From Macrotrachela quadricornifera (Eukaryota > Rotifera > Eurotatoria > Philodinida > Philodinidae), in contig JAJEKB010021002.1 in NCBI GenBank assembly GCA_022393335.1, forward strand, positions 279,108 through 343,107: a stretch of DNA of 64,000 nt, read 5' to 3'. Shown here piece after piece: positions 25,351 to 63,869 of this stretch (the first letter of the stretch is position 1; every line of letters begins with the position of its first letter). Under the pieces are notes generated by a model that was not told the DNA's origin, ran no database searches, and saw nothing but the letters and a program-made list of their open reading frames with translations. The position numbers and the translations under genes are program-made.

Positions 25351-25627
25351 CTCGAGTTTTCAACTATTCAACTTTTAAAAGTTTTAATACTCGAGTATTC
25401 GAGTTTTCAACTTTTCAACTTGAGGGTGAGGACGTGAGGAGTGAGATTATAGGTATGGGTGAGGGCGTGAGGGGTGAAGTTGAGGGTGTGGATGAGGGTG
25501 AGGGTGAGGGTGTCAAAGAACCGGCAAATGCTGCAGGCAGCATCCTGAATCTATCATATAGTAATAGTTGAAAACTCGAATATTCGGGTATTAAAACTTT
25601 TAAAAGTTGAATAGTTGAAAACTCGAG
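25351..25627. repeat. Palindromic element with telomere-like repeats in its loop
   Basis: The arms 25351-25410 and 25567-25627 are near-perfect inverted copies (outer ends CTCGAGTTTTCAACTATTCA and its complement). The loop, 25420-25511, is an irregular G-rich run of GAGGGT, GAGGGC and GTGTGG units on the plus strand. It is flanked by ordinary AT-rich DNA and has no coding content. Confidence 0.85.
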
Positions 25628-32918: not shown

Positions 32919-34223
32919 CAGGGTGTTCCAAAAGTCCCTTTAAAAAGTTTTCATTAATATCTCTTATACAACACAAGCAATTTAACTGTTTTTTTTTATG
33001 AAGTAGTAGTATATTCTCTGAAGTTTTATTTCATATAATTTGGTTTACAATAAGTTTTCAAAATGGCTTCCTTCCACTTCAATACATAATTTCATTCTTT
33101 TCGAGATATTTTCAAAAACATTATACAAAGTATCTTTTGACATGGATTTGATTTCGTTCTGAATTTTCATCTTTAATTCATTCAGATCCTTGATAGGACT
33201 TCGATAGGCAATGTTTTTTAAGTAACCCCATAGGAAAAAATCGAGAGGAGTCAAATCCGGTGAGCGTGGAGCCCACCGAATCGGACCACCTCTTCCAATC
33301 CATCTTTTAGGAAATTGATGATCCAAAAATTGTCGCACGTCACGAACAAAGTGGGGTGGTGCTCCATCCTGCTGAAAAATAATCGAACGAGCCTTGTGTA
33401 GTTTCTTGACTTCTGGAATAAAAAAGTTCTGAAGCATTGAAAGATAACTTTCTCCATCAACAGTATTCTCTTCGAAGAAAAAAGGTCCGATTAAGTGATC
33501 TTTTGACATGGTACACCAAACATTTAATTTAGGAGATTTCATAACTGTTTCGATTGTTACATGTGGATTACTTTCTGACCAGTATCTGACGTTGTGCTTA
33601 TTAACTAATCCACGTAAATAAAACGTAGCTTCATCCGAAAAAAATAAATTTTCTTGAATATTCTTGTCTTGTAACATCGGTATCAGTGTCTTACAGATTT
33701 CAGTTCGATCTTGTAAATCTTCTTCATAGAGTTCTTGGACGAATTGTACTTTGTATGGTTTAAGTGAAAGATATTCTGTCATAATTCTGTGTGCTGTAGT
33801 CGGTGGAATGGAACAACTTGTTGCAACAACACGAACAGTCGATTGTGGTTCATTTTCCATAAGATCACGGACTTCATCAATCTTTTCTTCCGTAATTGTC
33901 GATGGTCTTCCGGAACGTTCTCGATCTTCTACTGTACCAGTTTCACAAAATCGATCAAATGTAGCTTGAATAGAGACTACACTTGGTGTTTTATTACCAA
34001 ATTCAACCTGCAGTTTTCGTCGGACAACCGTAGATGATTCAAATTTCGCCATCAACAAAAAAATTTTTATTCTAATATCTATCGGTATCGTCATTTATCT
34101 GAAAATATATAAAACAAAACTTGGGAGAATGTACTACTACTTCATAAAAAAAAAAGTTAAATTGCTTGTGTTGTATAAGAGATATTAATGAAAACTTTTT
34201 AAAGGGACTTTTGGAACACCCTG
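32919..34223 (-). mobile_element. Complete DD41D mariner-type transposon
   Basis: Terminal inverted repeats of about 97 bp (32919-33015 and 34127-34223) begin CAGGGTGTTCCAAAAGTCCC and are nearly identical. TA duplications flank them (32917-32918, 34224-34225). It is 1305 bp with one uninterrupted transposase. Near-identical ends and an open frame indicate recent movement. A lone related end sits at 55488. Confidence 0.93.
33045..34094 (-). CDS. Mariner-type transposase, DD41D, intact
   Basis: 349 residues. It cuts and pastes the surrounding element. The N-terminal half has two helix-turn-helix regions (FLLMAKFESSTVVRRKL; STVRVVATSCSIPPTTAHRI) linked by RSGRPSTIT. Catalytic residues: Asp in FFSDEATFYL, Asp in FQQDGAPPHF, Asp in TPLDFFLWG, with 41 residues between the last two. 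The DD41D spacing matches the rosa-type clade of the IS630-Tc1-mariner group. The frame spans nearly the entire interior, with no stops. The ATG is 33 nt inside the inner edge of the right inverted repeat. Whether it is expressed cannot be judged. Confidence 0.92.
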   Translation of the reverse strand: MTIPIDIRIKIFLLMAKFESSTVVRRKLQVEFGNKTPSVVSIQATFDRFCETGTVEDRERSGRPSTITEEKIDEVRDLMENEPQSTVRVVATSCSIPPTTAHRIMTEYLSLKPYKVQFVQELYEEDLQDRTEICKTLIPMLQDKNIQENLFFSDEATFYLRGLVNKHNVRYWSESNPHVTIETVMKSPKLNVWCTMSKDHLIGPFFFEENTVDGESYLSMLQNFFIPEVKKLHKARSIIFQQDGAPPHFVRDVRQFLDHQFPKRWIGRGGPIRWAPRSPDLTPLDFFLWGYLKNIAYRSPIKDLNELKMKIQNEIKSMSKDTLYNVFENISKRMKLCIEVEGSHFENLL

Positions 34224-39435: not shown

Positions 39436-40353
39436 CAGGGCTACCAAATTTAAATTTTCAAATGGGGTTTATGAAAGTTTGAATGGGGTACATCATTGGG
39501 GTACATCATTGGGGTACATAACTTACTACTATCGGAATTTTTAAAGAAGACCGGTGGAAGAAAGGTTTANNNNNNNNNNNNNNNNNNNNNNNNNNNNNNN
39601 NNNNNNNNNNNNNNNNNNNNNNNNNNNNNNNNNNNNNNNNNNNNNNNNNNNNNNNNNNNNNNNNNNNNNNNNNNNNNNNNNNNNNNNNNNNNNNNNNNNN
39701 NNNNNNNNNNNNNNNNNNNNNNNNNNNNNNNNNNNNNNNNNNNNNNNNNNNNNNNNNNNNNNNNNNNNNNNNNNNNNNNNNNNNNNNNNNNNNNNNNNNN
39801 NNNNNNNNNNNNNNNNNNNNNNNNNNNNNNNNNNNNNNNNNNNNNNNNNNNNNNNNNNNNNNNNNNNNNNNNNNNNNNNNNNNNNNNNNNNNNNNNNNNN
39901 NNNNNNNNNNNNNNNNNNNNNNNNNNNNNNNNNNNNNNNNNNNNNNNNNNNNNNNNNNNNNNNNNNNNNTATAAACCTTTCTTCCACCGGTCTTCTTTAA
40001 AAATTCCGATAGTAGCTAAAATAGAAAGATTTGTTTGAAAAATTGAGGAAACAGAACTTCGTTCATAAAAAAACATGTTCTAGTCGACTATTTCATAAGA
40101 AAAATAAATTTCATTGTTCATCTTCCACAAAAAGATAATTTTTTTTACAATTAATTTATAATTTTAAGAAACAATATAACCATCAATAAACAGATAAAAA
40201 GTTTTATGTTAAGATTAAGAAATGTTAAATATCGAATCAACTATGAAAAGAATTTTTTTACATGATGATACTTTTCTGAACGTCGAGCAGATTTTAATCT
40301 TATTAAAAAATCAGTGTATCGTACCCCTCAATGGGGTACGTTTGGCAGCCCTG
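39436..40353. mobile_element. hAT-like element containing the assembly gap
   Basis: The left end CAGGGCTACCAAA and the right end TTTGGCAGCCCTG are inverted. The flanks TTATATAG (39428-39435) and CTATATAG (40354-40361) match at 7 of 8 bases. GGGGTAC motifs repeat near both ends (39492-39518; 40321-40339). The run of N at 39570-39969 sits inside an inner inverted repeat (39525-39569 and 39970-40014). Confidence 0.75.
39570..39969. other. Assembly gap (400 N)
   Basis: Exactly 400 unknown bases, probably a placeholder or estimate. The two sides are inverted copies (GACCGGTGGAAGAAAGGTTTA), so the gap lies in a palindrome. Confidence 0.97.
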
Positions 40354-43583: not shown

Positions 43584-45066
43584 TATATCAAAGAATATAA
43601 TGAGGATTATTCAAAGACTCTCTAATCAGTTAGACATGTCATTCTTAAAATGAAAGCGAAATTAACAAAAAAACTTATATAGATATTTCGTGTTCAAGAA
43701 AAGCATTTAGTTATTGTGTGCAGCTAATTGATTCATAGTCTGAATTTGTTTATACGTTAAAATAGTGCCACATCAATTATTTTTCGAAACATAAGGAAAA
43801 GATACAGATACCGAATAAAATATGATACGCGCTTATTATTAATAGGATTTTTGAGCACAGAGACATAAGTAGTATCATAATTTCCAGAATTTCTTTTCAC
43901 ACTACAATGAAGAGATAAAAATAATCTTACTAAAGGAGCCCAACCCTCTAAAAACTCGATATTAAAGATCTCAAGTATAGCTTAAAATCATTCATTGTGA
44001 CAAAAATCACTTTCATATTCTGAATTCTTTTTGTGGTTAGTAGAAGTTTGATAATGTTTGATTTTCCTTTAACTTAATTTTCTATCGTGTTATTACGTTG
44101 AAAAAAAATCAAACTAAAACTTATGGCGTATTAAAAAGTCTACTATTAATTGCATATAACTTTTATCAAATGAAAAAACATTTGATATCTGTAACCGATA
44201 ATACAAACATGCTGGCGGCTTGCGAATGCTCAACTTTTTTTAATTGTTTTAATACAATAATAGTCATTATGATAAACTTGACTGATTTGAGCGTATAGAA
44301 AATTGAGTTTGGTAGTTTTCTCATTGTTTTAGTAATTGAATTTCTTTGATGTTTTTATGAATTGTTTTATTCAACGAACATAATTAAAAATCAAGATAAT
44401 TTCAAACTATTACGCTGAGAAAACCAATGTGAAGCTACATTTCAGAGAAAAATTGTCCATTTACATCTAGTTTTGACACAGTCTCCCTAACGAAAGGTCT
44501 TTACAAATAAATTGATAGTACTATTAAACAATGCCATTTCCCTAGAAAGTCATAGTTAGTGTAAACTTTTCTGCAGTTTGTATATATTAACTAGTATTAA
44601 TATTTTGAACTTGTTTAGCATGAACCTTTGTTTTCTATATAAATAACATTAATGATAGTATTCATATTTTCTTTACTGTCTCTGCAGTGAAAAGATAGTA
44701 GAAAAACGTTTCTTTTATTCACCCTGTATGAAAAGAGATGACTAGATCGTCTACGGTATTGGAACAGGAAAATTTTTTATATACTTTCAAACATGGAGAG
44801 AGAATAAAAAAGTGATATATTCGAAATAACAATAAATTTAGTGTAAATTTAGCTGTTTTTTCTTTTCATCGTTAACTAAATACACAAACGCTCATCGCAC
44901 AATATCATTATACAAGAATCACCCTCACCCTCTTTTGAGATCTTATAGTCTCAACATAGTCGCGGATGAAGTACAAAGAACTCCGATGAAATAATTTCAC
45001 TGACATAGGAAATATGTAGACTAGCTGAAAAAAAACCTAATTTTTGCAGAATTATAGGTACGCACT
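43584..45066. other. Intergenic with one short C-rich telomere-like motif
   Basis: CACCCTCACCCTC at 44920-44932 is two telomere-like units with the C-rich strand on plus, opposite to the other tracts. No gene recognised. Confidence 0.4.
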
Positions 45067-45363
45067 ATGTTACTTCATCAAACGCAATGGTTTATGTTAA
45101 TGATGGCCATGATAATATGTTATACATTTTCTTACGCAGCAACAAAAACTATACATCGTGAGTTTACCTATGCAGGAGCAAAATACCGATTATATTTGGA
45201 ACCGTCGGGTCGCAAATGTTTTTGGAATGGAGAGGCACCATTCTGTTTTCTTTCTTCTGGCTGTCCGACACGTACCACAACTATGAAAATCGACAAGTCT
45301 GGAGATGGTGGCTATTGTTGGATTGGCTTGAAATCTTATTGTTGTTTAGAATTGTCAAACTAA
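45067..45363 (+). CDS. Small secreted cysteine-rich protein
   Basis: 98 residues in one exon. An N-terminal hydrophobic signal (FMLMMAMIICYTFSYA, residues ~9-24) predicts secretion. The mature ~74 residues have KCFWNGEAPFCF, SGCPTRTTT, GDGGYCWIGLKSYCC. The pattern C-W-x-G-x-A-P-F-C ... C-P ... G-D-G ... C-W-x-G-x-K-x-Y-C-C recalls small extracellular disulfide domains I have seen in invertebrate proteins, but I cannot give it a family name. Six cysteines could form three disulfides. It stands alone, without visible relatives in the window. Function unknown; a defence or matrix role would be a guess. Confidence 0.65.
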   Translation: MLLHQTQWFMLMMAMIICYTFSYAATKTIHREFTYAGAKYRLYLEPSGRKCFWNGEAPFCFLSSGCPTRTTTMKIDKSGDGGYCWIGLKSYCCLELSN

Positions 45364-45730
45364 GAAATCATCACTATCCAGTAGATTTTCAAATAAAATA
45401 TACATCTGTTAGGTCACAATACATTCTTTTACGATTTGATTATCATTTATATTATATTTTCATTCTGTTCTATATGTGTAATAAGTTCATCGCTTCATTT
45501 TTCGTCTCTTTCCTTTCTTTCGCTCTATGGATCATTATTTTTCTTCTATCAACTTTTTGCAATTGATTTTCTCTTTTCATACATCATTAAAAGAAAAAGT
45601 AGACAAACCACATCACATTTCAACCTTACCCAACAAGTGTGAAAAATGCAGAGAGTGAGTGAAATAGTATGTCAAATAAGAGGAGAAAACAAACAATTGA
45701 AGCTAATAAAGTGAGTATATTAATAAGGCA

Positions 45731-45785
45731 TTCTTACAATCCGGATTTCGACTTTTAATTCAAAAGGTCTTTCATCAGGTAGGAA
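45731..45785 (-). ncRNA. Probable hammerhead ribozyme (third, weakest copy)
   Basis: On the minus strand, CUGAUGA (45772-45778) and GAAA (45746-45749) are separated by a hairpin with GAC/GUC and U4/A4 pairing. Stem III is the self-complementary AUCCGGAU, then U at the cleavage position. Stem I pairs GTAGGAA with TTCTTAC, one mismatch. Two unpaired bases after CUGAUGA make it less canonical. It lies 1.3 kb downstream of the Athena-type frame ending at 47068, where the 3' end of that element would be. Confidence 0.5.
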
Positions 45786-47067
45786 AAATATATAAATTCT
45801 GCATAAAATTTCCGATTGGTATTATCTGTATCTGGAAATGCGTGGCGTCTCAGGTCGGTTCGGAAGGAGTAAGTTCCAACAATCATATGCATTGTGGTAT
45901 GGTTTCAATAGCTGATGGTATGTTTTGTGTGGTTGTCAGTCCGTTGTTCTCTTATGTCTGATGGTATGAAATGATCCGATCGTGTTGTTGAAAACAGATG
46001 TAAGTTTATTCATGGTATTGAAAGGATGTTGAGGATCTGTTTGAAAAGATATGCAATTCTCAAATTCTTTTTGATCAGTTTGAAGTGATACTTAATTAGT
46101 TAATTGTGGATTTGCAATACTCATTGAGTTTGTCCCATTCAGAGTTTAACAATTATCAGTGCACGTTATACGTATTTATGAGTATGATTGATTGTTTGAT
46201 TGATGTAATTGATGAAGTTTCTGTAGCATTTGGATAGTTGGTTCATTTATTGCTTTAGATTGATCGCTTTTTTTGTTTTACACTGCAGTTGTCGATTACC
46301 ATTATATCGTTATACTAGACTTCGTTGGCTAACTTGTAGTAGTCGTTGAGTTTGCTTGTCGACGTTTTCCATGATCTTTAGCAGTTAGTTTACAGTAATA
46401 CGACGCTTATAACTTAGGATGATGTTCATCTACAATAGAGTAAGATAGACTGTAATTGTTCAACAACAGTTTTTTGATTAGTGAGATAACGAACACAATT
46501 GGGATTTCATTTTAGATGAACGAAAAACATCAGGTGTTGAATTAAAAGTATCTACATAATAAAGAAAACAATGTCTGCAACCCAGAAAGATAAATTGAAA
46601 GAAGGCATAGATTCATCTTTCACTTCAGAAATGGTTTCTAGTTCGTAATAATGGCGGATGATTATCAATTTGTGATAGAGTGATTACAATAAACTAATTA
46701 CAGTTATCCAGAGTTCAACTGGAAACTTAACACTAATGAGTAAGTAGGGAATAAGTTGAGAACAGCAAAAGAATATATGAATTAAAAGAATAGAGTAGCC
46801 TTAACGAGAAAGATATATCCTAAACAACAGCAATGACTTACAGTGGTACATAGATATAGATGTATAAAGAAATGAAATAATAATTTGAGTTCAATATTCC
46901 ATACTGGTATGACGAGTCTCAACAACAGTATGTATCCTACGACTCAGTCCTCCCTAGCTTCTTTCAAAAATGAGTTCGTCGAGTAGTGGGAACATGTAGA
47001 AAAAAGTCAATTTTCAGTTTATAAATAGCTCGAAGACAATCGATGATATTGGTTTGACGTTGTTCGA
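45786..47067. other. Presumed 3' untranslated part of the inner Athena-type fragment
   Basis: About 1.3 kb between the stop of the minus-strand frame at 47068 and the ribozyme motif. No coding structure. Assigned to the element by position only. Confidence 0.35.
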
Positions 47068-47853
47068 TCAATCTAAGCATCGGCAATGGTTTCGTTCGTG
47101 AGCGAGTGACAGATGTTGATTTTCTTCTAATTCTTTCATCTTTTGTGTAAACTTCATTTTACAATGATTTTTCTTCACTTCAGTAACAGTAAGTAAAAGA
47201 CGTAAGAGATCGGCTTTCGTACGTCCGATAATTTGTTGATATTCATGGATGGATTGTTCTCGAAAAGATGCATTCGTAATACCGTTAATTGACATCGGTA
47301 AAGATCCTTCGAGTAACTCAAATGAAACAGGTAATTTCTTGAAAAGAATATTTGATTTTAATAAGACAAGATCTTGTATAGCTTTCTCGTTTTCAAATGT
47401 CAACGAGCAAATATCTCTTGCTAACTGCAACTACAAACAAAAAAATAATCATTGAATCAATAGTGGAGAAAAGAAAAGTATGACAAAACAGACTTGTATG
47501 TTTGTTGGTTGATGCTGTTGAACATAGTTCCATTGATAGATTCGATCCAAATAAATATAATTGAGTAAAATCATTCGACTTTGAAAATTTAATTGCATAC
47601 TAATTAAACTTTCCTGATGAATAAATTGATCTATTTTCTCATCAAATGCATCAGACAAAATAGATTGAGTATGCTGTTGTGTCTCCATTTGTAATCGACA
47701 TTGTTGAGCCTTTACTTCTAATTGTACCAGATAGTTTTTGATAAAATTAACATAGACCATCTCGTATTCATCCGTTGGTTCATGTTCATGTGCGGAAAGA
47801 ATTCTTTTCGATTTCATGATTGTAGTAACCCATGCTGGCCAAAACATTGGCAT
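47068..47853 (-). CDS. Athena/Terminon-associated helical protein, 5'-truncated element
   Basis: Two exons, 47494-47853 and 47068-47430, with a 63-nt GT/AG intron, in phase, 240 residues from ATG 47851-47853 (MPMFWPAWVTTIMKSKR). The sequence is rich in Gln, Glu, Leu and Lys with long helical runs (LVQLEVKAQQCRLQMETQQH) and looks coiled-coil-like. No catalytic motif. The first codons abut a CACCCTCAAG telomere-like tract, so the upstream part of the element, and perhaps the true start, has been lost. Structural coiled-coil proteins accompany the reverse transcriptase in bdelloid Terminons; by position this is a candidate for such a gene. Functional status unknown. Confidence 0.5.
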
Positions 47854-47860
47854 TTTCTTG

Positions 47861-47919
47861 CTTGAGGGTGAGGACAATTACCACAAATACAAAGTATTTT
47901 CTTGAGGGTGAGGGTGAGT
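47861..47919 (+). repeat. Telomere-like G-rich tracts between two Athena-type fragments
   Basis: CTTGAGGGTGAGG at 47861-47873 and CTTGAGGGTGAGGGTGAG at 47901-47918, separated by 27 bp of AT-rich DNA. G-rich strand is plus. They sit exactly at the junction of the fragment on the left and the ribozyme end of the fragment on the right. Confidence 0.8.
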
Positions 47920-47930
47920 TTTCAAGTAAA

Positions 47931-48003
47931 TTTATTCTAAGCTAATTACGACACGTTTCGATCAGGGCTTAATCTGATCATCATCAGGTAAATTTAGAAT
48001 AAA
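47931..48003 (-). ncRNA. Hammerhead ribozyme at the 3' end of the Athena element
   Basis: On the minus strand, CUGAUGA (47981-47987), stem II GAUCAG/CUGAUC with loop AUUAAGCC, GAAA (47956-47959), a short stem III ACG-UGU-CGU, then A. Stem I is formed by UUUAUUCUAA and UUAGAAUAAA (47994-48003 with 47931-47940), perfect over 10 bp. One U bulges after CUGAUGA. A short stem III is typical of ribozymes in Penelope-like elements. The telomere-like tract follows immediately. Confidence 0.72.
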
Positions 48004-48061
48004 TAGGAATCTTCATCATGAGGGATGAAATCTCAAATCAATTAGAAGCAATTAGAGATTG

Positions 48062-48614
48062 TTAACATTGAGTAAGATGACGAAGTGTACGGTTATACCA
48101 TAATTTGGATTGTTTTTGAATATCCATACAGTGTGATTGAAGCATCTCATTCACGGCATATAATTCATAGGGCATATAAGATCTCATTTGTTGTCCAATA
48201 TTACCCGCATATTTGAATAGGTTTCGATTCTTGAAAGATATTTGTAAACAACTGACGAAGTATTTATTAATATGGTGAAGATCTTTATATTCCATTTGAA
48301 TATTCAATTAAGGTTATAATTGTTCGTCTCCCTTGGATCATTTCAGTCTGTAGAAGCATATAATTGATTTGTGTTAATTGAGTCTTCACTACAATAGTAA
48401 ATCGGTTTGTTAGTTTTGCCTGATGAATAGCTTCTTCTAGAACCAATCGTGCTTGATGCTGATGAATATGAAGAATCTCATAGGGTTGTGTCGGTTGAAA
48501 ACTATTTAAATGGTTTCTCCAAATATTAAAACCGTGTTTTTGATAATAATAATACACTATTAAAGAAACAAGTAGAATTTTGAATATTAATGAAGTGAAG
48601 AAGATTAAATACAT
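48062..48614 (-). pseudogene. Athena-associated membrane/helical protein, frameshifted
   Basis: Opens MYLIFFTSLIFKILLVSLIV (membrane or signal segment), then helical Gln/His-rich sequence to 48285. One frameshift near 48300 moves the reading to the next frame (IQMEYKDLHHINKYFVSCLQ), which ends HLTQC. It lies directly downstream of the reverse transcriptase and upstream of the ribozyme at 47931-48003, so it is probably a second protein of the same element. No enzyme motif. Confidence 0.5.
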
Positions 48615-48646
48615 GTTTTATCTAAAATAAAAAGAAAAACTTGTAA

Positions 48647-50984
48647 TTATAAAGGAGAGATTAAATTAGGATGTGCAAATAGGAAAAAAAGAGAATAACG
48701 CTTGTATTTAATCAATTGATAAAGTAAACTATTTGATAAATAACAATAAATAGATTGTAATTTGATTTTCAAGCCATGCTTTTTAAAGTTTGGATCTTGT
48801 TCAAGAAATTCAGTCCATTTTCTAGTAAATTCTGAATTAAATTTCCATCTCGAGCCCCAATGATAAAGATAATTGAAGTGAATTATTTTATTATCTCTTT
48901 CCAGTTCTTGTTGCTCTTTCATATTCTGTTTTTGTGTTGAATGGTAACGAAAGAGAGAACTACGAAATACATTATATCGATATTGAGTAAGTTTTTGTTC
49001 GAAATTATTACTAATGGGTTGACTGACAGGATGCATTAATCGAAAGAATTGTCGTAGATGATATTCAGTAAAATTCAATGAATATCCATTGGCAAGATAT
49101 GTTAACTCAATATTCAGTAATTCATCATAGAAATCTTGTACATGAGTACAATAGAGACCAGCACGTAGAAGAAGAAATCGAAACCATTGCCGATAATATA
49201 AACGTGGATGGTGACTAAAATATGGTAAAAGAAATGGTTGTTTACTTGGCGCATAATAAACATTTGTATATAAAGCTCCTTCTCGATTTTCAATATAACA
49301 ATTAAGATAATAAGCATGAAAATCAATTGTAAATGTTAAATGAATAGGTGCATCAAAAGATGATTGATTAATTTCATTAAATATCTTTTGTATATCTTCC
49401 CATGATTGATTCCATGTTAGAAAACCTGTTGAATGATAAAGACCAAAGAATTCATTGGCGACACGTACTGATCGAAGCAAAGTAAATTGCCAATGATGTA
49501 ATAAATATTAAATAATAATCTGTTAAAGGAAAATTTAATGGGCAACCTTTTGTATATCGATAAATTTTGTCATCATAAATCAAAACATTATTTTGTAAAA
49601 AAAGATCTGTTAATTCTGCAATACCTTCAGCATTTAAACCTTGATGATTAGTTTCATAAACAAGTGAATTCATTAGTAAAGTACAAAGACCACTAAGACG
49701 ATTTTGATGTGAAAGATGTGTATATAAATGATGAATTTGAAAAGTAATAAAAGACGTTTTTGGTCGAAGACCATCCTGTTGAAAACAATGACATTGAAGT
49801 TTTCTTAGAAATTCACCACCATTATGAAATGTAATTGGTTGTGAAACTTTTTCAAATAATGGTCGAAGAAGTTGTTCGAGATAGTTTGCTAAGATTTGTG
49901 TTGGAGAATTGGATACTGAAGAAATTCTTGGTTGAACTGAGATATTACCATCATTATCTCGATTAATTTCTGGTAGAAAATAAAGATGTGGTAATTTAAT
50001 ATATAATTTTTGATTCATTCCAAATTTTGTCAGATGATCTTGTGTATTTAAGGGTACCCCCCCTCTTTTTCATATACAATTTCTAAAAAATTTTTTGTTT
50101 TGTTTTTGTGTACTTTGAAGAGGGTATATGTGGGTATATTAACTGATGTTTGAATTAGCTCGATCTAGTCAACCGTTAGTCTTTTACATAGTGTCCATGA
50201 GTACAGTATGGCCAAAAAGAAATTTTCTCAAAAAACTTTTTTAATCTGATTATTGGATTCTCCATGTAAAGTTGTCCATAAAACATTAATAAAAAAATAT
50301 TGGTACTTCGTGAACTTGAAAATAATTTTTCTCAAAACCGGTTTTTCATTCAATGAGCAGCATTGTGCGTCGAGCAACCACCTTTTAACTTAGTCCCATC
50401 GAGCTGAAATTTTTACCATAGATACTTCGAACTATTCTCCAGAGGTAAAATCGAGGATTTTCAATTCTGATGTTTCCATCCGGATCTATAGGGTTCCGAA
50501 GGCCAAAAACCTGGTTCTGACAAAAACCTTTACGTATATTTTTTATAAAAAAAAATAAAATGAGATTTTCGAAAACCCAGAAAATTACCTCTGAGATATG
50601 GTCGTAGGTATGTCAAAAAAAATTTTCAGCCAAATCGGACAAGTTTTGATATATATGTCTCGACGCAGAATGAGAACCTATGGAAAACCAGTAAGTTCCA
50701 TAGGAAACCATGAAAACCGCCGTAGAAAATGTTTTCCTCAAACACGTGTCTCATCATTTTAGGTAGTCTATCTACCATAAAAATTTCAGCTCAATCGGAC
50801 TTACCGTCTTTGATATCTGAAAATCATCAAAAAAAGAGGGGGGTACCCTTAATTTTCTTTTGAATAAAGCTTTCAAAGTTGTATCCATAGATTGAAGTAC
50901 TCGCTTCCAATGATATTGTTCAGTATGTTCTCCGTCGATCCTTCCAATCACTTCGAAACAATTGGAAGTTTGTATATACAGCAT
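48647..50984 (-). pseudogene. Athena-type Penelope-like reverse transcriptase, inactive
   Basis: Minus-strand frames 50984-50849, 50051-49452 and 49480-48647 form one reverse transcriptase. Landmarks in order: SFITFQIHHLYTHL, GIAELTDLFLQNN, PLNFPLTDYYL, WQFTLLRSVRVANEF, LYHSTGFLTWN, YLNCYIENREGALYTNVYY, PFLLPYFSHHPRLYYRQWFR, LRAGLYCTHVQDFYDE and LANGYSLNFTEYHLRQFF. These match the Athena group of Penelope-like elements; no GIY-YIG nuclease is seen. It is dead three times over: the YxDD catalytic pair reads Y-H-S-T, there is a frameshift near 49500, and a piggyBac-type insertion splits it at 50052-50848. Athena elements extend chromosome ends using telomeric G-overhangs as primers. Confidence 0.85.
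50052..50848. mobile_element. piggyBac-type MITE inserted in the Athena reverse transcriptase
   Basis: Ends are GGGTACCCCCCC and its inverse GGGGGGTACCC, flanked on both sides by TTAA (50048-50051, 50849-50852). It is 797 bp and non-coding. The host frame reads straight across if one TTAA and the insert are removed, which confirms the boundaries. Confidence 0.88.
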
Positions 50985-52680
50985 GATTACGTTATTATTA
51001 ATAGTTTTGTTTAGTTTGCTGTATTAAAGTAGTACATTGGAAGTTTCTTATTTTAACACAGTAAGATAGAGCATCGACTACTCTATCGAACCATATAATT
51101 TGCATTCTATTTTTCCTGGTCCTACACGAAAAGATTGATAAATCTCAAACGAGTATGAAAAAAAATTTTTGCAGTTAGCTCACGTTATTTTTAAAAGCTT
51201 TATTCTACATATATATGAACAGAAAGGTAGTACAATTATAGACGATGTTCGACATGAGAGCCACGAGCATTATATATTTTCAAAATTCTTTTTGACCATG
51301 AAGCTAATACTTTATCAATATAGGTTTGATTCATTTTTCTCCATTCAACCAAAAGCTTTTTTTTAAAGTTCATCAAGAGATTTAGTATCTGTTCTATTCA
51401 GTCGTTGTTTTAAATACCCCCATATAGCATAATCCATTGGTGCAGCGTCAGGACTAGCCGACATCCATTCTTCTGATTTGATATAATTAATTTTATTTTC
51501 ATTCAAATATTGAATTGTCTCTTTGGAAGTATGACTTGGTGCTGAATCCTGATGAAAATACCATTTTCGTTTTTGTTTTTTTGAAAACAAACGTGGTACA
51601 TCTCGAGTTAAAAATAGTTTCAAAACCTTGTTAATATAATAATTCGTATTAATTTTTGTACCAGGCGCAACAAAACGAAGTGCTGTTTTACCTCGAGTTG
51701 ATACACCTCCCCATACCATAAAACCTTTTGGTCGAGAAGTGTTTTGTTCGATAATCATTCGATTGTAGTCCGGATCAGTTTTTTTAATATAGCACACTTT
51801 CCGTTTACCACTACTTGCATCTAAATGAAACCAAGCTTCATCTGTTGTAATAAATCTTTTGTATCGTTGATGTGCTAATCGACGATCAAGTTCCCGTGAT
51901 CGTTTTCGACGTTTCATAATATTTGATGAAGTTAACTTGTGAACTTTTCTTTTTTTTTCGAAGGATAAATCCTGAATTTTTGATGATGTTCGAAACGGTA
52001 GATTGACTAATATGAAGAGATTTAGCAATAGCACGTTGGGTTGATGGATCTTCAACATCAATTTTCTTAATGACTTTGTTAACAATAGAAGTTGTTTGTG
52101 ATGGTTTTTTTCGATAAATTTTAATTTTCGATTCAGAATTTCTTTGACGATCGATCTTTCGTTTGATGTTTGACACAGTAGGTTGAGATACATGTATTCC
52201 ATCAACTTTCAGAGTGTTCACAATTCGAGGCTGGGAGTATCCTTGGTATAAAAGTTGCAGAATACGTCCTTCGACAATATCAGAAATTTTATTGCGTGGC
52301 ATTTGTTTGAAATGAATTTTAACGAATTGAACGAAAGAGAAAGAGGAACACCATATTCGTCATTCAACAGGAAAGAAAAAAACCGCTCAATATACGATGT
52401 GCACGTGTTATCGCGAATGCTGTGAAGCATAACACGAGCAGTCTGTATATGAAAAATAAAGCTTTTAAAAATAACGTGAACTATCTGCAAAAATTGTTTT
52501 TCATACTCGTTTGAGATTTATCAATCTTTTCGTGTAGGACCAGGAAAAATAGAATGCAAATTATATGGTTCGATAGAGTAGTCGATGGTCTATCCTACTG
52601 TGTTAAAATAAGAAACTTCCAATGATCTACTTTAATACAGCAAACCAAACAAAACTATTAATAATAACGTAATCATGCTG
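50979..52680 (-). mobile_element. maT-like (DD37D) mariner with ~230-bp inverted repeats
   Basis: Inverted repeats 50979 to about 51208 and about 52451-52680 start CAGCATGATTACGTTATT and are about 95% identical. TA flanks both ends (50977-50978, 52681-52682). It contains one transposase gene on the minus strand. The left end lies just upstream of the first codons of the Athena frame. Confidence 0.9.
51363..52302 (-). pseudogene. maT-like DD37D transposase with one frameshift
   Basis: Starts MPRNKISDIVEGRILQLLYQ (ATG 52300-52302) with two helix-turn-helix regions (GYSQPRIVNTLKVDGIHVSQ; AIAKSLHISQSTVSNIIKNS). A frameshift near 51950, in a T-run, moves to the frame with TTDEAWFHLDA, YFHQDSAPSH and SPDAAPMDYAIWGYLK, ending KSLDEL at 51363. 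All three catalytic Asp are present, 37 residues between the second and third. Apart from the frameshift the protein is complete. A homopolymer sequencing error would look the same. Confidence 0.88.
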
Positions 52681-52682
52681 TA

Positions 52683-54019
52683 TGCATTCAGTATTGAGAT
52701 ACGTCTGAATACCACTTTTTCCAAGATCGACCTCAGCAGGTAATTGTTTCATAGTTGACATCAGAGTACTCCATGTAGCAAACCCACACAACATCAACCT
52801 TCAACTCGGGTCATCACCTCGGGACGTTCCCTTGTTAGCTTATTACATATTCCAGTTGTTTTCGAAGCCTTCTCTGTCTTTGATCATCGACCTAGAGTGA
52901 CCTTTTCTTATGCCCGGTGACGCCCAAAATCTTTAATGACCACTAATTATCTTGATCGATCGTTAACCCACTGAATATAAAATGACTTTACATCTCACAC
53001 TAGAGTCTCTCTCTCTCTCTAATAGTGAAAAGATCAGCTCCCTAGCAGCCTTTGTTCAGGAGATATTCTTCGTAGGGTTTTCTTCATTTACTCTGGGTAC
53101 CGATAATAGTGAATCGTGTGCTAATGATTTCTTTGCTCGAAGTCATTGACAAATCAATATGTATCGTAGTTTTTAACAAGTCCTAAATTATTATATGTTA
53201 ACATTGATGTAGTAAGTGTTCAATCAAGTCAACATATATAGATGATCAAAAAAGACAGTTCGACGAAGTCAAAGATAGGAGGAAGCATAGGCGGCGGAGC
53301 CATCAAGCTTGGGGAGGCTCGACCCTCCACTGATTTGAAGGAGCAAAGACTTGGGGAGGCTGAAAATGGTCGATGTTTTCGAGATAGCCTCAAAGGCTTC
53401 ATGAGAAACTGAATAAATAATTGTTTCACAGAAAACATTCAAAACTTACCCACCTTCGACGGTTATTCCTATCAGAGATCGTAAAGTAGGCTGCAGTTAC
53501 TTCAAACAACACCCTCAAGTATGAGTAAGCGAAGAGAATTCATTGATTTTTATTCGCCTATTCAGAGAGAAAAGAGCCAATAAGATGAAATGCTACATGA
53601 CGTAGAAGCAATCATTTTACCATAATAAAAAAATTCTCTCAAGATAAACAGATTCAGACGCTTTCGTTCTGATGGCTTTACCTTTTTTCAGTCAAGAAAA
53701 ATATTTTTACCCTTCAGACGCACAGCTCCCATGAAAAAAACACTTTTCGCTTCGTGTAGGACTCAATAATTTTTGTTGAGCATTAGACAGTTTGGTAGTG
53801 TTGCAATAATAAGTAGTAGAAGAAATCTTCTTTCAGGCCTTTTGATATATAATTTTTCGCTAAACATTTTGATGCACAACTTGCCAGTTTACTGTATGTA
53901 ATTTTAGCAGCGTAGTCAAGATTTTCACAGAGGTGGGGCATGAGTAGGACTCAACTACCAAAACTCCTCTCGATGAGAGGGCCACAGTATGATTTAACTG
54001 GAAAATCTTTTCAGTGATA
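52683..54019. other. Intergenic with a hAT-like MITE remnant
   Basis: GGCGGCGGAGCCATCAAG followed by GGGGAGGCTCGACCCTCC at 53289-53326 resembles one end of the GC-rich hAT MITE at 8024; a second GGGGAGGCT occurs at 53352. No opposite end found. Otherwise nothing recognised. Confidence 0.4.
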
Positions 54020-56118: not shown

Positions 56119-59023
56119 ATGACATCATTTCTTACACTGCCCGTGGAAATTGTCTATCGTATTCTGGACAAGCTCGATGAACTGACTTTGGTCATATCTG
56201 CTCGAAATGTGTGTCAACGACTCAATTTAATCCTCGATTCATACCATCGATACACGGTAAATACCTTCATTTTTATATGCAAATAACATGTTCTTCGCTT
56301 TCATAACGTCATTTACTTCACCGATAAAATAAGTTTTTTTCATTGTTTCGCAATGACATGTCTTAAAGGTAAAAAAATCAGCTTTAACAGCTGAATATAT
56401 GTGTCGGGGAATGAGAAACTGAGTTCTCAAAGTTTACAAAGTTAGGAATGGTATTCGAACGTTAATAATGGCTCACTCTCTTTTGTATAATCATAATATA
56501 GCATTCTAGAAATGATTCACATTATCGCCTGACAATAAAATCCAAACAAAAGGATAGATCAATCTTCGATGATATTATTTGCTTCCTTTCTGTTTTGTCA
56601 GTCTTTAGCTTTCTTAAAGTACGGCAATGTTATCAGACTTAAGTTGAAAGAAGAGAGCTTCTTGATTTTTTCAACGGCTACCGAATCGAAGAAAAACTGT
56701 CTTACTCGTTCATAGACTCATTAATAAAACAGAATTCGAGATGCTTACGATACCAAGAAAGAATTGTTACCACAGAAATATTTATATTTAAACATTCATA
56801 CACATCTATCTAGTTGTCTACACTTGAGCAGAGCTCAAAGTTCGTAAAAAAAATTGAGTTTTAGCTAGAAAAATCTATTCGCTGCTTTTCAAGTTTTTCC
56901 CTAGAATTCAACAAACAAGAATGGGTTCCAGACAAACAGTTGCTTTCATTCACGATTCAATCCAAAGATGTTATTTTCTAAGAGTTCACAGGTATTCAAA
57001 CACTTCGTCTAGTCTTGTTTGATTATCAAGTGAAGCGGATTCATATAAGTGTACATCATTGATTATGAATGAAAAAGGATAGTACAGTTTTGTTAAGCTG
57101 TAAATTATGCACCTTGATGAACCAAACAATTTATATCAGTGACAAAAAACGATAGTAAACTTTTGGTATAACGATGACCGCCTAGTCCGCATCTGAAACT
57201 TCACCAAAAACTATCCTAGTAGTTGATATTCTAAATAACTGCGAAAAACACTTGAAGAGATAAGATTTGTCCATACTTTCGTTTTTCTACTGTTCACATA
57301 CACATACTATTATTTGGACATCCACGAGAAAATCTTTCTAGGTGATCAAGTCCATTATGTTTCACCTTTTGACCGTAGATAGATCTCAGGGAGATATGAA
57401 AAGTCACAAGAGAACTATCGTCATAGGTCTTCTATCGAGAGCTAAAGGTGTTTTATTAAGAGTTTTGCCTATCTCAAGATATCAATCAACAAAGTGAATG
57501 CCGATATTTCGAGCTCAGATATGATCCATAGATAGTTCTATTATTAGATAGAAAGCGCTGAAAATAATACTTTTTTTCCTGAGATATCAAAGAAAACAAC
57601 CTTTTGAGCTAAAACTTTTAGGACGTTCTAATTAACAAAAAACCTTTTTTGTAGGAAAGTCTCCGCTTGAAATATCGACATTCAATGTCTTGGTAGGCAC
57701 CTTGTTATAGGTAAAATACCTGCAACTCGAGATAGAAGGCCTATGAAGATGAATCCTTTTGAGGCGTTTCATACCGTATTGAGATCTATCTACTATCAAA
57801 AAATTAGTGGACGTGATGCATTAATTTTTTGCAAGAAATCTACCTTACTTGGTGATCCCATGCGTAATGAAGCTGATCTTATGTTGCTGCATTCAGAAAT
57901 TTTAAAATTTCTGATATCATAAGTCACAAAATATTCCCACTTGTAATTCGTCTCTATCAAACCGATCGGAACTTACCCATTTGCATCCGATACACTGAAT
58001 CCCTCTCCCTACTTATTCAACCATTATCGACATTTACCGTTTCGTCATTCAACACAGACACTCACAATACTACGCCTTCAAATGAGTAGTATCGGTACTA
58101 GAGGAGCGAAGCATCTCGGAAGTGCACTACAATCCAATACGGTGAGAGAGAAAGGACTATTACATTCACACTCTGCATATTGACTTTCTTCGTTCAACAC
58201 AGACACTTACAACACTGTATCTTTTTTACAACGAAATCAACGCTGAAGGAGCAAAGTATCTCGGAATTGCACTGCACACCAATACGGTAAGCGAGAGGTA
58301 ACTATGACACTCACATTCTGCATATCCGATTTCTTCATTCAACACAGACACTCACATTATTGGAGCTTGAAGGGAATAATATCCGTGATGAAGGAGCGAA
58401 GTATCTTGGAGATGCATTGCAAACCAATAAGGTGAGAGATAGATGACTATTCCACTGATATTCTGCATACTCGATTTCTTCATTCAACACAGACACTCAC
58501 AACATTGGATCTTTATGACAACAATATCGGTGATGAAGGAGCGAAGTATCTCGGAAGTGCATTACAAACCAATATGGTGAGAGAGGGTTAACTGACACTC
58601 ACATTCTGCATATCCCATTTCTTCATTCATCACAGACACTCACAGAACTGATTCTTGAAAGCAACAATATCGGTGATGAAGGAGCGAAGTATTTCGGAAG
58701 TGCATTACAAACCAATATGGTGAGAGAGGGTTAACTGACACTCACATTCTGCATATCCGATTTCTTCATTCGTCACAGACACTCACAACACTGAATCTTA
58801 AATGTAACAAGATCAGTGCTGACGGAACAACGTATCTCAGAAGTGCATTGCAAACCAATACGGTGAGAAAGAGAATTATTGCAGGCACATTCGTTATATC
58901 TAGTTGGTTAATTCATCACAGACACTTTCAACAACGTATCTTCAATCGACCAATGCCGGGGATGAAATAGATCGGCATTTGGAAACTGTGGCTCTAAGCA
59001 GGGAAAGAGAGATTCTTTGGTGA
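56119..59023 (+). CDS. F-box / leucine-rich-repeat (RNI-type) protein, eight exons
   Basis: Exons: 56119-56256, 58058-58141, 58203-58286, 58348-58431, 58493-58576, 58636-58719, 58779-58862 and 58922-59023. All are phase 0 with AG/GT borders, 247 residues. Exon 1 is the F-box (LTLPVEIVYRILDKLDELTL). Exons 2-7 each encode one 28-residue repeat, TLTxLxLxxNNIGDEGAKYLGSALQTN. The last exon is a degraded repeat ending EILW. In the family, the F-box recruits an SCF ubiquitin ligase and the ribonuclease-inhibitor-type repeats bind a target. Introns between repeats are 60-72 nt and alike, pointing to duplication of an exon plus intron unit. The 1.8-kb first intron contains a MITE (57375-57793). No inactivating change seen. 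Confidence 0.83.
57375..57793. mobile_element. Fold-back MITE in intron 1 of the F-box gene
   Basis: Starts GTAGATAGATCTCAGGGAGA and ends with the inverse GAGATCTATCTAC. The arms pair over about 75 bp with mismatches (shared TCATAGG and CTTCTATC motifs). Non-coding. Confidence 0.8.
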
Positions 59024-62542: not shown

Positions 62543-62748
62543 ACAACATGTTTCTAGATGCCGATGAATATTGATATGATTTATCTAAATACTAAACCAT
62601 TTATCATTTATATATTAATGTCTTTATTATTCTTTATATCCCCTTCATTTGTTATTCTTTTTGCATGAAGAATAAACCGAATCTAAAATTCACATCTCGC
62701 TATATAAAAGACTAATAGAAATGCTGATCTTGTTTTTTTTTATTGAAC

Positions 62749-62768
62749 TTGAGGGTGAGGGTGAGGAT
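62749..62768 (+). repeat. Telomere-like tract next to a hammerhead ribozyme
   Basis: TTGAGGGTGAGGGTGAGGAT, about three GAGGGT units, G-rich strand on plus. It lies 14 bp from the 3' end of the ribozyme-bearing fragment to its right. Confidence 0.8.
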
Positions 62769-62781
62769 GAGTATAAATAAA

Positions 62782-62833
62782 AGAACACCACGACCGGTTT
62801 CGACTGAATTTCACAGTCTCATCAGGTGGTTCT
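62782..62833 (-). ncRNA. Hammerhead ribozyme, canonical core
   Basis: On the minus strand, stem I AGAACCAC / GTGGTGTTCT (one bulge), CUGAUGA (62819-62825), stem II GACUG/CAGUC with loop UGAAAUU (62802-62818), GAAA (62798-62801), a minimal stem III ACCGGU, and the cleavage triplet GUC before GUGG. Every conserved core base is present. The tiny self-complementary stem III is the form reported to act as dimers in Penelope-like elements. Confidence 0.88.
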
Positions 62834-63814
62834 ATAATTCTCTGCATAAATCAAAGAATATTCGGGTTAAATTAGGAGTAAAAATGACTTTCAATATTAA
62901 CACAAATATTTCTCAGTAAGAAGGATATTGTTGTGTGGATTAACAATCAAAGAGGGAATTGTAACTTACTCCCCATGTTGTACAAACCGCTCCAAAACCG
63001 TCAGTTAACCGCGGTTAACGGTATTCTATTGACGGTTATATTCATGAATCTACTAGAGTATCAGGACTGGATCTGACTTCCAACAAAAATTTTGATTTCA
63101 GTTTTAACTTTCAGTAAGAATGTATTTAAATCTAATTAAGATCAACTTGAAATATAACAATCAAAGAATATTAAAAATCATTTACGCACGCAAAATTACC
63201 TATCATTATTTTACATAATAAATGTTCAACCAAGTCAATTTGAACTGATATAAAGCGAAAACACCACACTAACATTAAATATGTTCACGTAAGAACACGC
63301 CTAGAAGAACGGGTGACCGATCAATTCGTCGCCGATCAATTCGTCGCATATATATGATAGCAAGAGAGACAAGTATAGAGAGAATCAATAATTGAATTAC
63401 ACGATTTAAACTAAGTTGTGATTGACTATACTGCTCACCAAAGTGTTCTTAAGTAGATTTACCAGTCAAACTTGACTGAATGAAATAAAATCTGAAAAAA
63501 AATTTGAAACAAGCTTTTGAAAACTAATGGAATGAGACATAAAATTTAATTTAACTTTCTTGATAAGGATAACTAAGATTTGGTACGCAATTAAAAATAA
63601 ATGATTCAGCAAAACTTAAACATACAATGAGAGCAAGACTTGCTTCCATTATTATTCTTAAGATTTTCAATACTCTTTCTCAGCATCAACTAAGAGGCAG
63701 TCCACTTAAATCAATTCAGTTATTCGATCTTGACAAATGCGTTATCAAAACTTTTCCTGTGTTTCAAAATGAAAGTTTGACGCTTTGGACGCTTTTCCTC
63801 AAACTAATAGTAAT
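62834..63814 (-). mobile_element. 5'-truncated fragment of an Athena-type element
   Basis: The 980 bp between the ribozyme and the next telomere-like tract would be the 3' part of an element on the minus strand. No reverse transcriptase or other frame is recognisable. A 14-bp direct repeat GATCAATTCGTCGC occurs twice near 63319-63348. Assigned by the flanking ribozyme and telomere-like repeats only. Confidence 0.4.
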
Positions 63815-63869
63815 TTGAGGGGTGTGAGGGTGAGGGGTGAGGGGTGTGGGTGTGGGGTGTGAGGGTGAA
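63815..63869 (+). repeat. Telomere-like tract, ~55 bp
   Basis: Irregular GAGGGG, GTGTGAGGGT and GTGGGTGTGGGG units, G-rich on plus. This is the longest such tract in the window and mixes GAGGG and GTGGGG types. The bdelloid Adineta vaga telomere unit is TGTGGG, which fits part of it. Confidence 0.8.

Follow-up and report, generated by a model that had tools for sequence, protein, structure and literature searches.

The transposition of Penelope-like elements that lack an endonuclease is largely limited to chromosome ends (PMC3846280). The anatomy described for Athena and Terminon elements in PMC6431247 includes a ribozyme that adjoins (ACACCC)n or (TCACCC)n, 5' truncations bordered in most copies by telomeric repeats, and head-to-tail arrays. 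The 64-kb window (the whole stretch of DNA analysed here) resembles these systems in pairing a ribozyme with a C-rich, telomere-complementary tail, in its 5'-truncated copies and head-to-tail arrangement, and in carrying reverse transcriptase (RT) and coiled-coil ORFs (PMC6431247). It differs from them in that only truncated 3' parts are present, with no working RT found, in that its inner fragment (E1) is without a full tail, and in that its outer fragment (E2) ends at a mariner. In their very short stem III the ribozymes resemble the minimal type I hammerheads known from Terminons and Penelope-like elements, for which forms lacking helix III are described in PMC7761336. Unlike these, two of the window's ribozymes (HHR1 and HHR2) carry extra bases before stem II, and no Rfam match reaches the gathering score.

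We interpret the locus as probably a head-to-tail pile formed by Penelope-like elements of the Athena/Terminon type, which lack an endonuclease and are present here as 5'-truncated copies. Three ribozyme-headed fragments lie in the window in a single orientation, with the following parts and neighbours:

45714..47860, minus strand: E1, inner fragment, 5'-truncated at about 47859; left limit 45714 read from the sequence
45726..45790, minus strand: HHR1, descriptor match, predicted cleavage at plus-strand position 45738
46970..47859, minus strand: E1 coding remnant, from protein matches; N-terminal coiled-coil-like region of relatives
47861-47873, plus strand: G-rich tract CTTGAGGGTGAGG, from sequence, opening a 40-nt piece (47861..47900)
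47901-47918, plus strand: G-rich tract CTTGAGGGTGAGGGTGAG, 31 nt from the predicted HHR2 cleavage site
47901..50976, minus strand: E2, outer fragment, with tail, HHR2, small ORF and RT-derived ORF; a TTAA element lies inside
47938..47999, minus strand: HHR2, descriptor match, predicted cleavage at plus-strand position 47950
48062..48617, minus strand: E2 small ORF with a frameshift (second frame from about 48286 downwards) and a hydrophobic segment at the N terminus
48647..50976, minus strand: decayed RT-derived ORF, 5'-cut, starting at P0001 residue 154
50048..50852, no strand assigned: insertion in the RT-derived ORF, flanked by TTAA and with GGGTACCCCCCC... as its inverted ends
50977..52682, minus strand: putative mariner-type element, TA-flanked, 238-nt inverted repeats, 96% complementary
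62748-63815, minus strand (from the ribozyme): E3, with G-rich tract and HHR3, followed on the outer side by the 53-nt mixed tract
62748..62766, plus strand: G-rich tract by E3, 26 nt from the predicted HHR3 cleavage site
62780..62837, minus strand: HHR3, descriptor match, predicted cleavage at plus-strand position 62792
63816..63868, plus strand: mixed TGAGGG/TGTGGG tract, 53 nt, from sequence, outer side of E3

These features bear out the Athena/Terminon-type fragments in one orientation that an earlier note on this DNA had proposed, and they include a (TCACCC)-type tail next to a ribozyme as described in PMC6431247. The layered order that it had drawn is also present, with minus-strand ribozyme cores, antisense coding in both E1 and E2, and plus-strand G-rich tracts.

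A descriptor requiring stems I and II matched exactly three ribozymes in the 64-kb window, all on the minus strand, against a mean of 0.11 and a maximum of 1 in 100 control windows; this contrast is somewhat fitted, because the descriptor was composed once the candidates were known and tolerates 0-2 extra bases before stem II. The bare hammerhead core pattern has 7 sites (4 plus, 3 minus) compared with 1.0 expected in base-shuffled windows. Both ribozymes of the earlier note are there (minus-strand cores at 45746-45778 and 47956-47987), but its count was incomplete, as the descriptor adds a third at 62.75-62.84 kb. HHR3 is the most canonical of the three (fold z -1.77), and HHR2, with fold z values of -2.03 and -3.07, has a single extra base ahead of stem II. 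HHR1 is the weakest, at fold z +0.83 and -0.51, and has two extra bases there and a UU cleavage site. At the gathering score, Rfam found zero families in the whole window. With lax settings, hammerhead families appeared in the window only at 62.79-62.87 kb, as Hammerhead_1 in the HHR3 region (17.4 bits, E 0.11) and RAGATH-1-hammerhead (15.6 bits), both far under gathering; no hammerhead was found in 44500-53000, nor in the HHR2 region (47880-48050). Thus, a hammerhead motif lies near the 3' end of 3/3 fragments by the descriptor, with HHR1 weak and the Rfam scores sub-gathering.

The G-rich repeats reported at the cut end of the inner fragment are also present, as two tracts 27 nt apart and not as one. 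Runs of at least 13 nt in the GGGTGA phase number 4 on the plus strand and 1 on the minus strand, versus 0 in 60 Markov controls scored on both strands. Among 670 hexamer classes, the GGGTGA class alone has at least two such runs on the plus strand. A C-rich tail follows the ribozyme directly in two of the three fragments, E2 (31 nt past the predicted cleavage) and E3 (26 nt past it), and the two share an identical 18-nt C-rich end, CTCACCCTCACCCTCAAG. CTTGAGGG occurs four times on the plus strand of the window, each time as the left edge of a G-rich tract. Because the same 18-nt end recurs near the cleavage site in two elements, the tract at 47901-47918 reads on its sequence as more likely the 3' tail of E2 itself than a telomerase cap. 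The tract at 62748..62766 is likely the tail of E3, in sense, and the 40-nt piece at 47861..47900 may be all that is left of another truncated copy, its 3' tip.

The earlier note had instead read the tract as telomeric: after truncation, telomerase would have capped the inner copy with GAGGGT repeats, and the cap would have received the next element. We consider this less likely, but a serious rival. Telomeric repeats are described as added to truncated 5' ends (PMC3846280) and the fixed CTTGAGGG start could be a telomerase default on a non-telomeric end, but the tract on the HHR2 side shares its 18-nt end with that of E3. As the sequence on the inner side of E3 is unrelated, the shared end suggests that the incoming element supplied it. 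The identical ends and the CTTGAGGG borders thus fit an element-encoded tail better. The short lengths of the tracts at 47.9 kb, 13 and 18 nt, also speak against a cap. The mixed tract on the outer side of E3, 53 nt and a possible cap, speaks in favour of the telomerase reading. The bdelloid telomeric repeat is taken in PMC7943196 as TGTGGG, not TGAGGG. The window has two TGTGGG-phase runs of at least 9 nt (29650 and 63842), which makes the identity of its telomeric repeat uncertain and counts against the pile favoured below.

The cut in E1 is documented at the protein level. Its coding remnant matched 13 of the 104 proteins searched, and 10 of the 13 extend 164-235 residues upstream, as the earlier note had anticipated for a fragment cut at about 47.86 kb. 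Judged by these relatives, which read through the site, E1 is truly truncated inside its coding region. The remnant is 70-80% identical to P0039 at 46970-47403 and matches P0040 at 47113-47868 (BLASTP E 5e-25). It has a frameshift near 47090, and in its sequence the 63 nt at 47431-47493 read as a putative GT-AG intron. The E1-matching region is N-terminal to the RT-derived part in 12 of the 13 proteins, P0039 standing alone. In the window, the order is reversed, with the E1 remnant downstream (in sense) of the RT-derived part and a ribozyme and tract between them.

The RT-derived ORF of E2 is 71% identical to P0001 over two main segments and has a frameshift near 49500. The small ORF next to it reaches a Kyte-Doolittle maximum of 2.4 over 19 residues and has no relative among the 104 proteins (BLASTP best E 0.56). 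Its homology to the E1 remnant was considered and dropped (BLASTP between them, E 2 at best). E2 was previously drawn to 50984, a position that falls within the element at 50977..52682, which we read as mariner-type from its ORFs; E2 ends at about 50976. The ORF at 51363-52208 of this element had no Pfam match, and the sequence to the right of the E2 edge matched none of the 104 proteins. The three 5' edges differ: E1 has a cut followed by a tract, E3 has a tract and no coding match to the 104 proteins, and E2 has the mariner border and no tract, which leaves terminal addition at the E2 edge unsupported. The 132 nt after the 53-nt tract hold no descriptor ribozyme. The E3 ribozyme and its tract (62.75-62.84 kb) lie outside 45731..50984.

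In the pile of truncated copies that we favour, an exposed 3' DNA end would have primed the copying of each RNA, starting at its tail. Copying would have halted early, and the next copy would have joined the new end. The 47901 tract would then be the tail of E2 and the piece at 47861 the tip of a very short further copy. At the junction itself, the E1 cut joins CTTGAGGG tracts and then the ribozyme end of another element. The 3' ends of all copies are to the left, so growth would have run left to right, and the locus may once have been a chromosome end. Several features speak against the pile. In addition to the tractless mariner border of E2, E1 has the weakest ribozyme and, downstream of it in sense, only ACTCAC in place of a full C-rich tail, ORFs of presumed host genes lie to the left of both E1 and E3, and a (TCACCC)2 tract at 44919 is on the opposite strand.

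Those ORFs, whose ends are 0.35 kb from E1 and 0.2 kb from E3, would suit an internal origin without a chromosome end here: either internal double-strand breaks received the copies, or recombination or break-induced replication carried the pile inward. The sequence that borders the tracts on the left is non-telomeric, break sites are named as possible primers in PMC3846280, and break-induced replication is suggested for an Athena-bearing telomere in PMC2861651. However, 10 of the 11 GGGTGA-phase runs of at least 9 nt are on the strand expected if the chromosome end was to the right, and the outer tract of E3 looks telomeric, making an internal origin unlikely. An assembly error joining separate repeats is very unlikely: a gap of 400 N at 39570-39969 and the transposon end at the E2 edge, a repeat that assemblers can misjoin, would allow it, but the inner junction fits the published anatomy and a similar tail junction occurs again at 62.75 kb. 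A single element normally carrying both ribozymes and the G-rich tract is hardly credible given the gene order, reversed relative to 12 of the 13 matching proteins among the 104 searched, and we read the fragments as separate elements, as the earlier note had done. A pile of separate copies would make the locus a readable record of successive additions, with the ribozyme and C-rich tail end in TCACCC form. It also makes testable, at this locus, whether short telomere-like tracts between copies are tails copied from a template or were made by telomerase.

The p51 subunit of HIV RT retains the RT fold without the polymerase residues. The core of Prp8 likewise derives from an RT that lost its catalytic residues (PMC5718144). 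A similar loss marks the outer fragment, which the earlier note had described as carrying the reverse transcriptase: the ORF is RT-derived, but the residues of a working RT, including the catalytic aspartates, are absent. Its family aligned to P0038 (hhalign probability 98.2) and to five RTs (99.9). The motif-A aspartate is present in 0/83 family rows with a letter there compared with 5/5 outgroup RTs, and the motif-C DD in 0/85 family rows compared with 6/6 outgroup RTs, P0079 among these. In motif C, family rows keep the first D in 27/85 cases and the second in 1/85. By homology and predicted fold, the E2 protein is thus RT-like but a member of a non-catalytic family. Like Prp8 (PMC5718144), this family keeps the RT fold without polymerase residues; Prp8 is a spliceosome protein, whereas the family looks like an element gene akin to the element's own RT. 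Nor is it a cleaved form of an active chain, unlike p51.

No working RT was seen in the window, where the copies are truncated. In P0079, one predicted Rotaria sordida protein, an RT lies upstream of where the window copies are cut, and its RT part matches the dead ORF in the window. This suggests that a working RT would be found further upstream in the full-length element. Tentatively, and at somewhat less than even confidence, we propose that bdelloid chromosome-end retroelements combine a working RT with a second protein of RT origin, which lost its catalytic ability a single time, ahead of the split between Rotaria and Adineta, and was kept as a long ORF, often fused to a coiled-coil-like region, as a possible non-catalytic partner. 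Such a protein may act as a p51-like scaffold for the working RT, hold the tail RNA and the chromosome end, or compete with telomerase. If telomere-targeting elements do carry a conserved dead RT, this would be a new component in need of explanation. In the literature covered, to which the original Terminon and Athena papers did not belong, a dead RT is not described for these elements, and its novelty is unproven. Because the gene that would be annotated as the element RT is from a family that lacks polymerase residues, RT similarity could give wrong counts of active elements.

Pfam gave no family above cut-off, endonuclease domain included, in five window ORFs, though the copies are truncated, and only scattered matches in 36 members of A2 (best E 0.015). 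RVT_1 was above cut-off for the outgroup P0101 and was not listed for P0079 or P0040, and PF26215 is precomputed for many family members yet absent from the Pfam scans run here. An IMG/VR scan found no relative (46 stretches fit the pattern, 0 confirmed). The structure model of the RT-derived protein (pLDDT 82.9) matches RTs and telomerase; a control RT matches telomerase equally, and the idea of a telomerase mimic from fold alone was dropped. The named members of the RT-derived non-catalytic family are all bdelloid.

The layered fragments of Penelope-like elements (PLEs) in the window form a pile of the known Athena/Terminon type, in which an inner and an outer fragment lie in the same orientation, each headed by a predicted hammerhead ribozyme. 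A third such fragment lies further right. Each ribozyme is listed with its fold z-scores, a measure of folding energy rather than of the hammerhead fold as such:

45714-47860, minus strand: inner fragment E1; its ORF is frameshifted near 47090 and contains a putative intron of 63 nt
45726-45790, minus strand: E1 ribozyme, from the descriptor (z +0.8 and -0.5)
47901-50976, minus strand: outer fragment E2
47938-47999, minus strand: E2 ribozyme, from the descriptor (z -2.0 and -3.1)
62748-63815: third fragment E3
62780-62837, minus strand: E3 ribozyme, from the descriptor, canonical (z -1.8)

The bare pattern CTGATGA...GAAA occurs at seven places in the window (four plus, three minus), where base shuffling of the window would give 1.0. 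With stems I and II as a further requirement, exactly three ribozymes remained, all on the minus strand: both ribozymes of the earlier note and that of E3. The descriptor averaged 0.11 matches (maximum 1) in 100 Markov controls, a somewhat flattering contrast because it was devised after the candidates were known and tolerates 0-2 extra bases ahead of stem II. Rfam listed hammerhead families at the E3 ribozyme with scores far under gathering; no family exceeded its gathering score in the whole window, and hammerhead families were absent from lax searches of 44500-53000 and 47880-48050. PLE and Terminon hammerheads are described, in a passage of PMC7761336, as minimal type I variants without helix III.

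The E1 ORF matches the N-terminal region of larger proteins. Among 104 fetched proteins, 13 matched the remnant (E 1e-3 or better); 12 are fusions, with the match N-terminal to an RT-derived part in each, and P0039 stands alone. In eight of 1056-1145 aa (P0040, P0051, P0052, P0056, P0057, P0060, P0081 and P0087) this region is fused to an RT-derived protein without catalytic aspartates (dead RT). As the earlier note anticipated, relatives extend past the inner cut at the protein level: 10 of the 13 continue 164-235 residues further upstream than the first residue encoded in the window, lengths extrapolated for several because the local matches begin inside the remnant, and counted for P0079 inside its own ORF (from residue 292). 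The exceptions are P0086 (26 upstream residues), P0075, which stops short of that residue, and P0039, which begins inside. Hence a true truncation has occurred at about 47.86 kb, a position through which relatives continue. No RT-derived match to the 104 proteins was found in 45.7-46.97 kb (tblastn); therefore, E1 represents another family or is internally deleted.

GGGTGA-phase runs of at least 9 nt number 10 on the plus strand and 1 on the minus (mean of 60 controls, strands pooled, 0.35), and those of at least 13 nt number 4 and 1 (control mean 0). GGGTGA is the sole class of 670 hexamer classes with at least two plus-strand runs of at least 13 nt. CTTGAGGG occurs on the plus strand at 25419, 47861, 47901 and 62748, each of the four copies bounding a G-rich tract on its left, and once on the minus strand (53512; control mean 0.43, maximum 2, both strands). 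A serious rival reading, that of the earlier note, takes the tract as a telomerase cap. Against it, E2 and E3 share, in element sense, the end ...CTCACCCTCACCCTCAAG, 31 and 26 nt past the predicted cleavage site; in E1 nothing more than ACTCAC stands there. These ends agree with a passage of PMC6431247, according to which folding of the ribozyme leaves neighbouring (ACACCC)n or (TCACCC)n exposed, and suggest that the tract is part of the incoming element. A passage of PMC7943196 takes the bdelloid telomeric repeat as TGTGGG, not TGAGGG, which calls for caution in reading the tract. Most likely, copies would have been added successively onto exposed 3' ends, the copying of each stopping early. 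The order and orientation of the fragments, the inner truncation and two tails are observed directly; we infer the priming, the chromosomal nature of the end and the order in time.

A degenerate G-rich stretch at 25419-25512 shares its initial CTTGAGGGTGAGGAC with the 47861 tract; by our reading it appears to be part of an inverted repeat and may be unrelated. The plus strand also carries a lone TCACCCTCACCCTC tract (44919-44932), reverse in orientation to the remaining ten runs and unaccompanied by a descriptor ribozyme.

E2 is a decayed copy. Its ORF (48647-50976, minus strand) is broken by a TTAA-flanked element and a frameshift, and is 71% identical to P0001 over two main segments from residue 154 on (tblastn). 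Right of 50978 none of the 104 proteins matched (tblastn), nor is there a tract at the E2 edge. The ORF lacks its first 153 residues, and this loss falls at the end of a mariner-type element (50977-52682), perhaps by chance, perhaps through a deletion or misassembly.

The reverse transcriptase noted earlier in E2 held up as homology to PLE-type RTs (hhalign probability 98.2 with P0038, 99.9 with five RTs) and not as an enzyme with catalytic aspartates. A first search gave 38 proteins, including the outgroup RT P0038; a profile search, scoring the 7994 candidates with most shared words, gave 95, including four outgroup RTs (P0101-P0104) and P0079, itself partly RT. The profile is matched by 97 family proteins, 54 over at least 550 residues and the remainder shorter or partial; members with organism names come from Rotaria and Adineta. 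Counting rows with letters at the columns, window copy included, the motif A aspartate is present in 0/83 family rows (K 34, E 24, Q 17, T 3, R 3, H 2) and both motif C aspartates in 0/85 (first kept in 27, second in 1), versus 5/5 and 6/6 outgroup RTs.

In a tree of 31 sequences of our choosing (25 of the family; about 205 columns, motif B onward), the dead proteins form one clade (UFBoot 100), sister to the RT part of P0079 (99), which also best matches dead proteins among the best 40 phmmer matches listed (P0046, 144 bits). If the genes were vertically inherited, the catalytic residues would have been lost once, before the Rotaria/Adineta split. P0079, a single incomplete Rotaria sordida gene prediction that lacks the motif A stretch, combines an RT carrying DD with the N-terminal region and the beginning of a dead RT. 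The putative linkage of these three parts in one element rests mainly on this protein. Our favoured guess is that the dead RT protein partners a working RT.

Passages of PMC6431247, PMC5408684 and PMC5718144 mention Terminon coiled-coil ORFs, which may be identical with the dead RT proteins. Dead RTs in Terminons go unmentioned in passages of these three papers and of PMC3846280, PMC7761336, PMC7943196, PMC2861651, PMC5537684, PMC10088271 and PMC7658794; PMC12440569 was also consulted, at abstract level. They may already be known from the original Terminon description.

The third ribozyme-headed fragment, with its tract (62748-63868), is bounded inward by a C-rich tail and outward by a mixed TGAGGG/TGTGGG tract of 53 nt, and is a cleaner layer than that at 45.7-51 kb. 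By eye, an uninterrupted 349-aa ORF at 33045-34094 (minus strand) is mariner transposase-like, and a 145-bp tandem repeat at 58040-58942 is leucine-rich-repeat-like.
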